Positions 7,178 to 10,297 of a DNA stretch of 64,000 bases are shown here, one piece after another. The position numbers and the translations under genes are program-made. This DNA is from Paracidovorax cattleyae. GTDB lineage: Bacteria; Pseudomonadota; Gammaproteobacteria; Burkholderiales; Burkholderiaceae_C. Within the stretch, counting starts at the first letter, position 1. Each line of letters opens with the position of its first letter. The DNA lies in the NCBI RefSeq assembly GCF_900104515.1, contig NZ_FNJL01000002.1, positions 186,001 through 250,000 of the forward strand, written 5' to 3'. The notes under the pieces are model-generated. The model was given only the letters and a program-made list of their open reading frames with translations. It had not been told where the DNA came from and ran no database searches.

Positions 7178-7395
7178 ACGACGTTCTGGCGATGGGCCGG
7201 ATCATCAAAAGCAACTCGATCGTAACGATGAGGTTAAACCATGCTCGGGTGCCAGCGAGTTACAAAACCTCTTCCGAGGCGTCCGAGTGAAACGGCCTGC
7301 ACCGATACCAGGGGCATATCCCACATGCCGGGCTTTCCTGGCCTGTCCATGCCGCAGGCATGGGGCTCTTTCAGAAGCCGCCAACTCCTGCTTTT

Positions 7396-7424
7396 TTGCC
7401 GTGCCCAGTGGGCTATGCGACAAT
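7396..7424 (+). promoter_or_regulatory. Promoter of the split tRNA-Ile2 gene
   Basis: A -35-like TTGCCG (7396-7401) and a -10-like GACAAT (7419-7424) are separated by 17 bases. The -10 ends 10 bases before the first tRNA base at 7435, which fits a short leader. The -10 is weak by consensus. Confidence 0.5.
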
Positions 7425-7434
7425 CGAAGGCTGT

Positions 7435-7771
7435 GGGCCGTTAGCTCAGTTGGTTAGAGCAGAGGACTTGACGGGGAGGCTCCTGCCCCCAGGCGAACGC
7501 CCGGGAATGGAGCGGCACCCAATGGGTTGCTCAAGGTAAGTTCACTCTGCCTTGAAGTAGAACTTCTCAAATTCGGTGAACGCTACTGCGCGTCCGTGCG
7601 CGCTATGCCAACGCCGAGCGAAGCCCTCCACGAGGAGGGAACGTGTAGAGACTCGACGGGAAGGCCGAAAGGCAAGACAGAGTCCAGGCCACGAACCGGA
7701 AACGGGCGGCGAAAGCCGAAGTGGCACGCATAATCCTTTGGTCGCTGGTTCGAGCCCAGCACGGCCTACCA
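7435..7771 (+). tRNA. tRNA-Ile2(CAU, lysidine type) interrupted by a group I intron
   Basis: The two exons, 7435-7468 (34 nt) and 7729-7771 (43 nt), join into a complete 77-nt tRNA with encoded CCA. The acceptor stem GGGCCGT/ACGGCCT closes (G1-U72 wobble), the D arm is GCTCAGTTGGTTAGAGC, and the T arm is CTGGTTCGAGCCCAG. The rebuilt anticodon stem-loop has loop CTCATAA with anticodon CAT at 34-36. The GACTCATAATC anticodon context matches the minor isoleucine tRNA, whose C34 is changed to lysidine by TilS, better than elongator Met. The intron lies between U33 and C34. A tRNA finder with a short intron limit would miss this gene. Confidence 0.88.
7469..7728 (+). ncRNA. Group I self-splicing intron in the tRNA-Ile2 anticodon loop
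   Basis: The 260-nt intron has the full group I core in order: P3 CTTCT (7563-7567) with GGAAG (7659-7663); P4 TCGGTG (7573-7578) with CGCCGA (7612-7617); P6 CCCTCC (7624-7629) with GGAGGG (7634-7639); P7 GACTC (7650-7654) with GAGTC (7680-7684); P8 GCC-GAAA-GGC (7664-7673); P9 hairpins CCG-GAAA-CGG (7696-7705) and GGC-GAAA-GCC (7708-7717). The intron ends in G (7728). U33 at the 5' splice site can pair with G at 7478 or 7479, but the short P1 contains a mismatch, so the 5' boundary is the less certain end. It encodes no endonuclease. It resembles the small intron known in Azoarcus tRNA-Ile(CAU). Confidence 0.88.
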
Positions 7772-8089
7772 CGCACAGAAGATGGACGACGCGCACGGCA
7801 GGCGTGACGATCCACGCAGCACGGACCGTCCGAACAGGTGGCTGTGCTGGCCGACGATGCCCTTTGGGACCGCTCCACGCCCAGGTTGACCCTCCCGCCG
7901 CCCTTGCAACTGGTCCCGCGGCTCGGCCGATGGCCTGGATTCCTGGCTGCAGGAATGTCTCCGCCGTGACCTTGCGCCCACCTCAATGCGTTCGTTTCGT
8001 TTTGTTTGACTAGCGCGGGGGCGTGTTCGGGGAATGTTTAAATAATGTGGTCGGCCTGCCGGTTTTGAACGCGGCGAGTCGAAGTCCGA
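7772..8089. other. 318-base stretch without a convincing gene
   Basis: Between tRNA-Ile2 and the S24 repressor no reading frame has a start, ribosome site and recognisable product together. A stretch near 7932-8010 reads GLDSWLQECLRRDLAPTSMR in one frame, ending in TGA, and could be the tail of a decayed gene, but it has no start and a stop lies shortly upstream. Confidence 0.4.
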
Positions 8090-8767
8090 TCAGATCTTCC
8101 GTCCGTTCCAGATCCATATCACCTTGCCCAGGATCTCCACCGTGTGCTTGCCGTCCAGGACGTCCACCGTCTTCACGGTGGGGTTGTCGCTGCTGATCTC
8201 GTAGGCACCATCCAGCCGCTGGCGCACACGCTTGATGAAGAGGCGGCTCTGGGCCGCCAGCACATAGACCCCGTCGACCTCCAGGGTGCGCACGCCTGCG
8301 TCCACCAAAAGCACGTCGCCGTCGAGGAAGGTGGGCTCCATGGAGTCCCCGTAGGCATGGATGAAGCGGAGGTTCTCAGGCGTGCTCAGGCCGCGCAGTG
8401 TCTTGCCGATCCATGCCGGTGACAGGGTGAGGTGGCCGACCATGACATCTTCAGGGGCCATCTCGCTTCCTGCGCCCATGGACGCGGTGTTTGCCAATTG
8501 CGGCACCGACACGCCGCTTTCCTGTGAGGGGGCTCGGGCAGGTGCCTCCCCGCGCCTGGCTGGTGGCGCATCGCCCGCCAGCACCCAGGCGGCCGAGCAA
8601 CCGATGAGTTCCTCGGCCTTGAGTGCTCCCGCCTTGGAAACTCCTCGCACCTCCCAGTTCTTGAGGTTCTGCGGCGACTCCCCGAGCAGCCGGGCCACGG
8701 CGGACTGGCCCGAAACATCCTTGATTTCGGACGCAGCCTGGTAAAGACGGGCAGTACTCTCGTGCAT
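8090..8767 (-). CDS. S24-family (LexA/CI-like) transcriptional repressor
   Basis: The product has an N-terminal helix-turn-helix (SAVARLLGESPQNLKNWEVR) and a C-terminal S24 peptidase-like domain with the serine in YGDSMEPTFLDGD and the lysine in RLFIKRV, the dyad that lets LexA and phage CI proteins cleave themselves after DNA damage. I chose ATG 8765-8767 (MHESTARLYQ, 225 residues) because GAGG lies just upstream; an upstream TTG would add six residues. The gene faces a divergent gene across a symmetric operator, as in phage immunity regions, but no phage structural genes are nearby. Confidence 0.85.
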   Translation of the reverse strand: MHESTARLYQAASEIKDVSGQSAVARLLGESPQNLKNWEVRGVSKAGALKAEELIGCSAAWVLAGDAPPARRGEAPARAPSQESGVSVPQLANTASMGAGSEMAPEDVMVGHLTLSPAWIGKTLRGLSTPENLRFIHAYGDSMEPTFLDGDVLLVDAGVRTLEVDGVYVLAAQSRLFIKRVRQRLDGAYEISSDNPTVKTVDVLDGKHTVEILGKVIWIWNGRKI

Positions 8768-8787
8768 GGCCTCATTGTGCCCCAATT

Positions 8788-8807
8788 AAACAAATTGTTT
8801 TAAACAA
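8788..8807. promoter_or_regulatory. Triple half-site operator of the S24 repressor
   Basis: The sequence is AAACAA (8788-8793), A, TTGTTT (8795-8800), T, AAACAA (8802-8807): two perfect inverted repeats sharing their middle half-site, in the 75 bases between the divergent starts. A dimeric helix-turn-helix repressor would fit. I infer autoregulation and control of the plus-strand gene. Confidence 0.6.
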
Positions 8808-8842
8808 AAATTGGACTTTTGTGTAAACGTGATGTTTAATCA

Positions 8843-9469
8843 ATGAAGCAGGAATTCGGTGCGGCAGCGCGGCTGCTGCGAAGTTCGATAACCATGACTG
8901 CGAGGATGGCCATGTCTCCCAGCGATTTCCCTGTACTCGAAGAGGCGTACGGCACAGCCACCAGCGCTTCCGACCTGCGCTTCTGCGTCCGCGAAGGCTC
9001 GCCCCATACATCTGCCGACGTGCTGGTCGCGGCAGGTTGGAGCCGTTCGCGCACCGGCGGCGCTCTCCTGCGGCTGCGTGCGGAACATGATGCTGCAGCG
9101 CGCAAGGCCGACAGTGGCGGTGCACCAGGGCAGGTCTGCGGACACGCTCTGCTGCGGGCTCTGCCGCAGGTGCAGCGACAGCTTTCCGCGCAGGCGGCCC
9201 GATGGAACGTGGATTCTCCCGAGGTCGTGTCGGCCGCCGTACTCCTTTGGTGGCTGCAGCCTGCATGTTCCGAGTGTCTCGGCAGGAAGTTCCTGCCCAT
9301 GCCCGGCACGGGTCGGCTTTCCTCCAGAAGGTGCATTGCATGCGACGCCACCGGCTTGACCAGCGTGCCGCATGGCGAGCCTGGACGCCGCATTGCCAGC
9401 TTCATCGACGACTGCGTGCAGCGCGCGCTCCAATCCATCCATTCCCGTCTCGGTGGTCAGCGCACCTGA
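8843..9469 (+). CDS. Cys4 zinc-finger-like protein, phage-type, unknown function
   Basis: The 208-residue reading has a C-terminal C-x2-C-x18-C-x2-C cluster (CSECLGRKF, then CIACDATG), as in DnaJ-like and phage Q-antiterminator-like zinc modules, and an N-terminal helical part with SADVLVAAGWSRSRTGGALL. Its position opposite the S24 repressor is that of an early lytic or accessory phage gene. The ATG at 8843 lacks a good ribosome site; starts at about codons 18-23 are possible. The frame stays open after the TGA at 9467-9469 for 29 more codons to a TAG at 9557-9559. Confidence 0.6.
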   Translation: MKQEFGAAARLLRSSITMTARMAMSPSDFPVLEEAYGTATSASDLRFCVREGSPHTSADVLVAAGWSRSRTGGALLRLRAEHDAAARKADSGGAPGQVCGHALLRALPQVQRQLSAQAARWNVDSPEVVSAAVLLWWLQPACSECLGRKFLPMPGTGRLSSRRCIACDATGLTSVPHGEPGRRIASFIDDCVQRALQSIHSRLGGQRT

Positions 9470-9613
9470 CCGGAACTGCATCAGTTGATTGCAGAGGGTG
9501 CTGATCCTCTCGCGCGACGCCTCTTCGTCAAACGCCCGCAACGACAGCCTGGCCAGTAGGGCCTGTAGCGATTGCGGTAGCCCTCGAAGAAGAAGCTCGC
9601 CCGAAATTTTCCC

Positions 9614-9645
9614 AAGCCTGCAGGGCTCGCTCTGCAGGCTTTTTT
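9614..9645 (+). terminator. Rho-independent terminator after the Cys4 gene
   Basis: The stem AAGCCTGCAG (9614-9623) pairs with CTGCAGGCTT (9632-9641) around an 8-base loop and runs into six T (9640-9645). It ends the plus-strand unit that starts at 8843. Bases 9470-9613 hold only the short in-frame extension described under that gene. Confidence 0.8.
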
Positions 9646-9764
9646 CATTTATCCCCGGGCACTCGTGGCAATGGCCGCGCTACGTCCGGGCTCCGGGAGG
9701 CTGCGGGTTTGCCGGTGAGAGCCGCAACCCATGAGAACGCGCGCAGGCGCAACGAGGAGATGCC

Positions 9765-10076
9765 ATGAAGACCAAGACCGCCAGCACTGAAAAGCATTTG
9801 AAGTTCGACGCGACGATCAGCACGGGCACCATCTTCCAGTTGCTTGCATTCATCGGCTCGGTGATTCTGGCCTATGGCTCGTTCTGCGAAGAACGTGTCC
9901 GCCAGGACAGCCGCATCGCGCAGGCAGAGGCGATGGCCGGAAGGGACCGGGAGTCCGTGCGTGAAGCCATCCGGGAAGTCAGGGAGCGTGTGGATACCCT
10001 GGAGCGCAGCCATCAGAACGCCCGGGAGTCCCTGGTCACGCTGCAGTCGTGTGCCAGGGCCAGCTCTGCCAGATAG
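9765..10076 (+). CDS. Small single-pass membrane protein with coiled coil
   Basis: The 103-residue product has a hydrophilic N-terminus, one hydrophobic segment (FQLLAFIGSVILAYGSF, about residues 25-41) and a charged helical C-terminal half with heptad character (SVREAIREVRERVDTLERSH). GAGGAG lies just ahead of the ATG. The layout resembles small phage or holin-region membrane proteins, but I cannot name a family. It sits between the terminator at 9614 and tRNA-Arg. Confidence 0.65.
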   Translation: MKTKTASTEKHLKFDATISTGTIFQLLAFIGSVILAYGSFCEERVRQDSRIAQAEAMAGRDRESVREAIREVRERVDTLERSHQNARESLVTLQSCARASSAR

Positions 10077-10181
10077 AAAATTACCGAAGTCTTCAGGCGG
10101 GACGGATTTCTGTACTACAATGGCGTTCTGCTTCTGATGCGACGGACTTGATCCGAAAGGCTCAAAAAATCTCTCAGAAGT

Positions 10182-10210
10182 TTTTGAAGAGTGGCAAAAC
10201 ATGCTATAAT
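10182..10210 (+). promoter_or_regulatory. Promoter of tRNA-Arg
   Basis: A -35-like TTTTGA (10182-10187), a 17-base spacer and a perfect TATAAT (10205-10210) end 10 bases before the tRNA. This is one of the few consensus sigma-70 promoters in the window. Confidence 0.75.
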
Positions 10211-10220
10211 TCAAAGCTTG

Positions 10221-10297
10221 GCGGCTGTAGCTCAGCTGGATAGAGTACTTGGCTACGAACCAAGGGGTCGTGGGTTCGATTCCTGCCAGCCGCACCA
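10221..10297 (+). tRNA. tRNA-Arg(ACG)
   Basis: The 77 nt fold as a cloverleaf: acceptor GCGGCTG/CAGCCGC (7 perfect pairs), anticodon stem CTTGG/CCAAG with loop CTACGAA (anticodon ACG, A34 normally edited to inosine), T loop TTCGATT, and encoded CCA at 10295-10297. A strong promoter precedes it and a terminator follows. Confidence 0.96.

Follow-up and report, generated by a model that had tools for sequence, protein, structure and literature searches.

A tRNA-Ile2(CAU) gene of Paracidovorax cattleyae split by a group I intron at U33/C34, and the distribution of related introns

How does a bacterium decode AUA when a gene required for that codon seems to be present only in a form interrupted by a ribozyme? 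The question is raised by a locus of Paracidovorax cattleyae, located in a window of 64,000 nucleotides (NZ_FNJL01000002.1, positions 186,001 to 250,000, forward strand) that is the whole stretch of DNA analysed and to whose positions all coordinates of the locus refer. Judged from its sequence and that of its relatives, the segment 7435-7771 is very likely a functional single-copy tRNA-Ile2(CAU) gene with a group I intron at U33/C34 and no recognisable intron-borne protein gene.

Boundaries and detection of the split gene

The original prediction, that a group I intron interrupts a CAU tRNA gene at U33/C34, is borne out by exact coordinates, empty alleles in relatives, an ARAGORN intron call and covarying helices (Table 1). 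The joined exons form a 77-nt tRNA with the anticodon CAU and an encoded CCA, in which the spliced-exon junction reads ...GGACU/CAUAAUCC... and which ARAGORN folds into a cloverleaf with a CAU anticodon, the first acceptor pair being G-U. The exons had been expected to rebuild a complete tRNA-Ile2(CAU), and they do so, with an isotype that is well supported by similarity.

Table 1. Features of the split tRNA-Ile2(CAU) gene, in window positions (A1, alignment of 66 introns)
Feature	Position	Strand	Evidence
5' exon of tRNA-Ile2(CAU), ending at U33	7435-7468	+	Abuts 3' exon in intronless relatives; ARAGORN cloverleaf from joined exons
Group I intron, 260 nt	7469-7728	+	RF00028, 24.3 bits; covariation over 66 introns; empty-site comparison
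P1 5' strand: exon GACU and intron base 1	7465-7469	+	Base 1 is T in 59 of 66, C in 7 of 66
AUG able to pair with 3'-exon CAU (P10)	7522-7524	+	Heptamer 7522-7528 in 42 of 78 introns (5.9% of shuffled)
Internal guide GGGUU, P1 3' strand	7524-7528	+	GGGUUG in 73 of 78 introns (7.3% of shuffled)
P2 hairpin	7531-7555 (7531-7536 with 7550-7555)	+	Window sequence; partial alignment support
P3	5' strand 7563-7568 with 7658-7663	+	100% paired; 4 of 6 pairs changed on both sides
P4	7573-7578 with 7612-7617	+	99.7% of cells paired
P5	7582-7583 with 7607-7608	+	100% of cells paired
P6	7618-7620 with 7642-7644	+	99.5% of cells paired
P6a	7624-7629 with 7634-7639	+	85.6% of cells paired
P7	7650-7654 with 7680-7684	+	Alignment A1
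P8	7664-7666 with 7671-7673	+	99.5% of cells paired
P9, with GAAA-capped hairpins 7696-7705 and 7708-7717	7689-7724 (7689-7692 with 7721-7724)	+	Alignment A1
Terminal guanosine	7728	+	Sequence; G in 66 of 66 of A1, required by the scan pattern
3' exon, C34 to A76, anticodon CAU and encoded CCA	7729-7771	+	Comparison with intronless relatives; ARAGORN

ARAGORN with its intron option calls a tRNA(cat), labelled Met, and places an intron of 260 nt at base 35. The default ARAGORN run misses the split gene and finds a tRNA-Arg at 10221 as the sole tRNA of the whole window, and Rfam at gathering thresholds likewise reports this tRNA-Arg alone in the window, as had been foreseen for standard annotation. 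Genomes of this kind thus look devoid of tRNA-Ile2 because default annotation tools miss the ribozyme-interrupted gene. A lax Rfam scan of 7300-7900 gave a single match, to the group I model RF00028 at 7510-7709 (E 4.8e-4), so that the proposed search with this model does detect the intron, but at 24.3 bits against a gathering score of 50, a threshold that is a database convention and not a biological definition. The Azoarcus-type intron L197 is likewise below the gathering score for RF00028 (49.1 bits). The free-energy fold of the split gene alone was not significant (z -1.54, with 6 of 100 shuffles as low) and was discounted as evidence. No sigma-70 promoter was found by a promoter scan at the split gene; a hexamer pair upstream (TTGCCG/17/GACAAT, 7396-7424) was noted by eye only, and the only terminator-like site is inside the intron on the minus strand.

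The split gene was sought in 21 genomes, comprising its own and 20 relatives, 12 of these of the same genus. Besides the own genome, full-length matches (97-98%) were found in the same-genus genomes G008 and G009, and the remaining ten same-genus genomes have exon-only matches at loci uninterrupted at U33/C34, which read ...GAGGACTCATAATCCTTTGG... (in two, ...GGGGACTCATAATCCCTTGG...). Uninterrupted ...GGACTCATAATCC... alleles thereby span the proposed junction in ten same-genus genomes, and the junction is unambiguous because the first base of the intron is T, against C in the empty allele, and its last base is G, against T in the exon. Of 17 genomes of the genus, 5 contain a pattern taken from the start of the intron. 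The intron of P. citrulli is 96.9% identical to that of the window.

Intron structure, guide and covariation

Related loci were collected with a pattern consisting of the P7 motif followed by the terminal G and CATAATC, which fixed in advance the 5' letters of P7, two letters of the 3' strand of P3 and the terminal G, and left the guide free. The pattern was found at 78 loci in genome contigs and 12 in viral contigs. Both cloverleaf exons were assembled in 84 of these 90 loci, which together with the window yielded 78 distinct introns; among the six others, two are chance-like (L074, L143), three lie near the end of the locus (L075, L112, L126) and one has no recognisable 5' exon (L113). Alignment A1 was restricted to introns of up to 350 nt with GGGTTG within the first 180 bases, by which 69 of the 77 introns besides that of the window were kept and 8 dropped, and it comprises 66 rows after further removal of L084, L090, L096 and L146.

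Because A1 was filtered on GGGTTG, the invariance of the guide within it (66 of 66) carries no weight, and it is the count over all 78 distinct introns that does; there, GGGUUG is missing from four planctomycete introns and from viral L152. The heptamer that can base-pair with the joined exons GACU^CAU is AUGGGUU in 41 introns and GUGGGUU in one; the window has AUGGGUU, which pairs on both sides of the exon junction. U33 faces G7525 in a U-G wobble at the 5' splice site, which is shared among the relatives, since both T and C at intron base 1 pair with guide G1. T1 is itself capable of a wobble with G1, so the 5' splice site might be sought one base later, after T1, leaving an anticodon loop of eight bases; as base 1 is C in seven relatives and the extra T is absent from intronless alleles, this site was rejected and is hardly credible.

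Over P1-P9 of A1, 95.4% of 3425 cells are standard pairs, compared with 83.8% when shuffled and 31-50% with slid 3' partners, and both-side changes occur in 27 of 52 pairs versus 20.8 in shuffles (covariation score 0.332 versus 0.143); relatedness is left in by the shuffles and also retained by the slide control. The predicted 260-nt insert with P3, P4, P6, P7, P8, GAAA-capped P9 hairpins and a terminal G is present in the window, as are P1 and P5, and most helices covary over the 66 introns. P7, like P3, is paired in 100% of cells, and P3, P4, P6, P7 and P8 each contain at least one pair changed on both sides, so that the group I core of P3, P4-P6, P7 and P8 covaries. The last pair of P7 switches among A-U, C-G and G-C, and its other four pairs are invariant, with 5' letters set by the search pattern. 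P2 is a weak helix, its outer three pairs being paired in 58% of cells. By eye, the core of the window intron resembles those of Azoarcus-type and tRNA-Leu introns. Open reading frames that overlap the window intron are short, the longer ones extending beyond it, and no HNH-like motif was seen in them by eye.

Transcription of such a gene would allow the following pathway. The guide GGGUU would pair with exon GACU and intron base 1, placing U33 in the U-G wobble, and an external guanosine bound by P7 would cut after U33. The 3' splice site would be aligned by the terminal G together with pairing of the exon CAU to the AUG that overlaps the guide, and ligation of the exons would give the 77-nt tRNA, in which TilS could turn C34 into lysidine, enabling the spliced tRNA to read AUA.

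Isotype, copy number and AUA decoding

The best E. coli match of the split gene is a CAU gene annotated as tRNA-Ile (87.0%), compared with 73.4% identity to the E. coli elongator tRNA-Met, and the split gene is therefore closer to tRNA-Ile2 than to tRNA-Met. With an Azoarcus-type tRNA-Ile the split gene shares 82.7% identity, and L014, the elongator-type CAU gene of the same genome, 70.9%. Some E. coli CAU genes annotated as tRNA-Ile also resemble L014 (80.5-82.1%) more closely than E. coli tRNA-Met does; searched against E. coli, L014 gave matches in 215 of 5426 genomes, and five among the matches listed are all annotated as tRNA-Ile. Because of these matches of L014, the tRNA-Ile2 isotype of the split gene is well supported, short of proven. 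The isotypes could be the reverse, the split gene being elongator tRNA-Met and L014 being tRNA-Ile2, with the intron biology unchanged: both genes carry CAU, L014 has the E. coli resemblance just described, and ARAGORN names the split gene Met, as it does other CAU tRNAs here. The E. coli and Azoarcus-type identities of the split gene speak against such a swap, as does the assignment of Acidovorax split genes to Ile2 by the authors of tRNAscan-SE 2.0 in the available text of their paper (PMC8450103), and we consider the swap improbable. Under such a swap, there would be no elongator tRNA-Met gene besides the split gene, whose product would be made by splicing.

With the split gene taken as tRNA-Ile2, the next matter is whether an intact copy exists elsewhere. 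The own genome (G000) is a draft of 5.6 Mb in 93 contigs, listed as 100% complete, in which 41 tRNAs score above the Rfam cut-off and one further match falls short of it. Typing of all 41 gave two CAU genes, the initiator L021 and the elongator-type L014, and a list without tRNAs for Tyr, Gly-UCC and Thr-GGU, which means that either the draft or the tRNA search is incomplete. These absences probably reflect an assembly gap, since G008, a single contig, has 11 more tRNAs over the cut-off (52), and, judged from the draft alone, an intact tRNA-Ile2 copy may lie in such a gap. A pattern for the anticodon arm was applied, with up to 3 mismatches, to five intron-bearing genomes of the genus and four intronless controls. 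An intact arm was found in none of the five intron-bearing genomes (G000, G008, G009, G583, G596) and, as an exact match, in all four intronless controls (G002, G006, G007, G010); the 3-mismatch match present in each intron-bearing genome reads CTT and in G000 is tRNA-Lys(CTT). L014 is single and identical in 5 of 5 same-genus genomes searched, whether intron-bearing or intronless, and so is a separate gene.

The gene tilS is present. Given this and the outcome of the arm search (0 of 5 versus 4 of 4 controls), AUA decoding very probably depends on splicing of the intron, and tRNA-Ile2 here probably exists only after the intron has excised itself. A silent split copy or a dead intron, with AUA read by another tRNA, would agree with the blank promoter scan and with the rarity of AUA (ATA accounts for 3 of the 105 isoleucine codons counted in five window reading frames). 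Such disuse is nevertheless very improbable, as no intact Ile2-like gene was found in the five intron-bearing genomes of the genus, the core is conserved and covarying, and the joined exons fold as a cloverleaf. In a search with the joined exons the best match was inspected in 30 of 33 intron-bearing genomes, which describes those matches and does not tell how many of the genomes lack an intact copy. In one of the 30, Stutzerimonas (L161, G047:C21), the split gene and a complete uninterrupted CAU gene are found on one contig, approximately 20 kb apart.

Insertion sites, distribution and phage-like contigs

The intron of Azoarcus pre-tRNA-Ile(CAU) was reportedly described by Reinhold-Hurek and Shub in 1992, and its guide for CAU is GUG. 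For comparison, RF00028 was searched in a sample of 150 genomes from the family of G027 (the Rhodocyclales MAG that contains L078), giving 20 places in 18 genomes whose sites were sorted by eye. The intron follows CAU of tRNA-Ile2 in five places (L192, L195, L197, L198, L199) and lies at U33/C34 of tRNA-Ile2 in another five (L203-L206, L208); five are in tRNA-Leu-like genes (L200, L201, L207, L210, L211), two in tRNA-Ser-like genes (L196, L202) and one in another tRNA (L194), and two are without the sought motif (L193, L209). L197, which we take to be of the Azoarcus type from its agreement with the Azoarcus ribozyme sequence, is split at U36/A37. The original prediction was thus right in stating that the Azoarcus intron follows CAU and in placing the window intron three bases earlier.

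As far as the available text of the source goes, the Azoarcus intron is likewise of group I and interrupts the anticodon loop of the same tRNA (PMC6274277), and by eye the P3, P4 and P7 core sequences are alike, but it sits at U36/A37, whereas the window intron, with its guide GGGUU, sits at U33/C34. The sampled family contains both sites, and two insertion sites with different guides in one anticodon loop constitute a natural test of group I site choice. The bacterial tRNA-Leu intron is also a group I intron in an anticodon loop, but of a different tRNA, which it splits after U34. A second group I intron of the own genome is in tRNA-Leu(UAA) (L051, approximately 2242-2551, G000:C75), split after GGGACTT; it scores 32.8 bits with RF00028, below gathering, the gene is missed by default ARAGORN, and a truncated tRNA-Leu-like 5' piece lies immediately upstream. 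Cyanobacterial initiator tRNA-fMet introns, according to partial sources, are group I introns in a CAU tRNA, as here, but that tRNA is the initiator, and the Synechocystis intron encodes I-Ssp6803I, whereas the window intron has no recognised nuclease.

The tRNAscan-SE 2.0 paper of 2021 is reportedly by Chan et al., and Paracidovorax is presumably the former Acidovorax. The novelty of the present intron is limited, as that paper already reports tRNA-Ile2 genes of Acidovorax and Burkholderia that contain group I introns (PMC8450103), which share tRNA, intron class and lineage with the window, but in its available text their insertion position, structure, guide and distribution are not given. 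The U33/C34 site and its spread, including phage-like sequences, are less documented, and no published description of the insertion, guide or spread was found in the accessible text of the literature searched.

The U33/C34 site is widespread and not peculiar to this genome. Judged by their record titles, the 78 genome loci are mostly of Betaproteobacteria, with others in Planctomycetota, Acidobacteriota and several unplaced Proteobacteria MAGs, and the gammaproteobacterial loci are those of Halotalea, Dokdonella, Hydrocarboniphaga, Perlucidibaca and Stutzerimonas, that of Pseudoxanthomonas (L113) being unconfirmed. Within the family of the window the pattern is present in at least 7 of 399 genomes, a minimum given the strictness of the scan pattern. 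Over 203 nt, the intron of Halotalea is 94.1% identical to that of the window. In a tree of 77 of the 78 distinct introns (L152 left out), which has several long branches and is based on a core of approximately 200 nt, gammaproteobacterial rows are found in both proteobacterial halves. Clade tests were based on 62 of the 78 introns, 16 phage, planctomycete, acidobacterial and long-branch rows having been left out. A single clade of all five gammaproteobacterial rows was rejected (p-AU 4.9e-49), and a clade of the three in the half of the window, a subset picked post hoc from the tree, was compatible (p-AU 0.207). Horizontal movement of U33/C34 introns would be the simplest reading of these sequences; transfer of whole tRNA genes may be an alternative.

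BLAST of the window intron against phages gave one distant match of 52 bases (86.5%), and against plasmids it gave 1250 records of 60-80% identity, those listed being at 66-67%, with hardly any of them bearing an annotated feature. The phage status of the viral contigs identified by the pattern rests on IMG/VR and a few PHROG matches, those of L152 being to families of unknown function only. Two viral loci (L146, L148) have exons identical to those of the window and are probably proviral stretches adjoining a bacterial gene. L147, with its intron-split tRNA-Ile2 at 7379-7691, adjoins genes for a phage DNA polymerase (phrog_262, 1039.8 bits) and for a UvsX-like recombinase; eight tRNA genes near the split gene on this contig are listed by ARAGORN, which misses the split gene itself. 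L153 is located among phage-type family genes, and L149-L151 and L154-L157 have a common 5' exon, and their 3' exons are alike apart from a single base in L149.

The introns of L107 (an Acidobacteriota MAG) and of viral L152 and L153 are 639-751 nt long, and each has an antisense open frame that matches PHROG HNH endonucleases (phrog_2255; E 6.9e-21, 1.5e-33 and 1.5e-21, respectively); Pfam gave sub-threshold matches for the frames of L107 and L153 and none for that of L152. The window intron may be an endonuclease-free descendant within a mobile lineage, homing to U33/C34 of tRNA-Ile2, that crosses classes, phyla and phages, some members having antisense HNH frames, and on whose splicing AUA decoding has now come to depend, an account that we hold tentatively and that falls a little short of being probable. 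Split tRNA-Ile2 genes on phage-like contigs, some with HNH frames, offer a testable route for the spread of bacterial tRNA introns. According to the available text of a 2014 review, all phage introns observed by then were in protein-coding genes, despite the many tRNA genes of phages (PMC3984707), and no later report of phage tRNA introns was recognised among the matches listed in a search mostly outside subscription journals. If the mobile-lineage account were true, phage tRNA genes would serve introns as hosts and also as vectors, contrary to the 2014 statement that confines phage introns to protein-coding genes.

Other observations concern the surroundings of tRNA-Ile2. Approximately 2.4 kb (7772-10220) separate tRNA-Ile2 from tRNA-Arg in the window, compared with approximately 146-340 bases in five intronless relatives, and in this interval lie the gene of an S24/CI-like repressor (8090-8785, minus strand) and a pair of open reading frames without family matches. 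Partial copies that cross U33/C34 without an intron were found as 3' halves of tRNA-Ile2 in G010 and G006 (L055 and L056) and as 5' pieces (L179, L181); all four look like attachment sites of integrative elements that use tRNA-Ile2. A CRISPR spacer of G008 (L052, 2873-2905, in an array with 49 repeat ends) matches at 33 of 33 bases the tRNA-Ile2 intron of its own genome, from P6a to P7, and differs from the window intron by 2 mismatches; the 5' flank in the intron is GCC, unlike the TTC flank of type I-C CRISPR systems.
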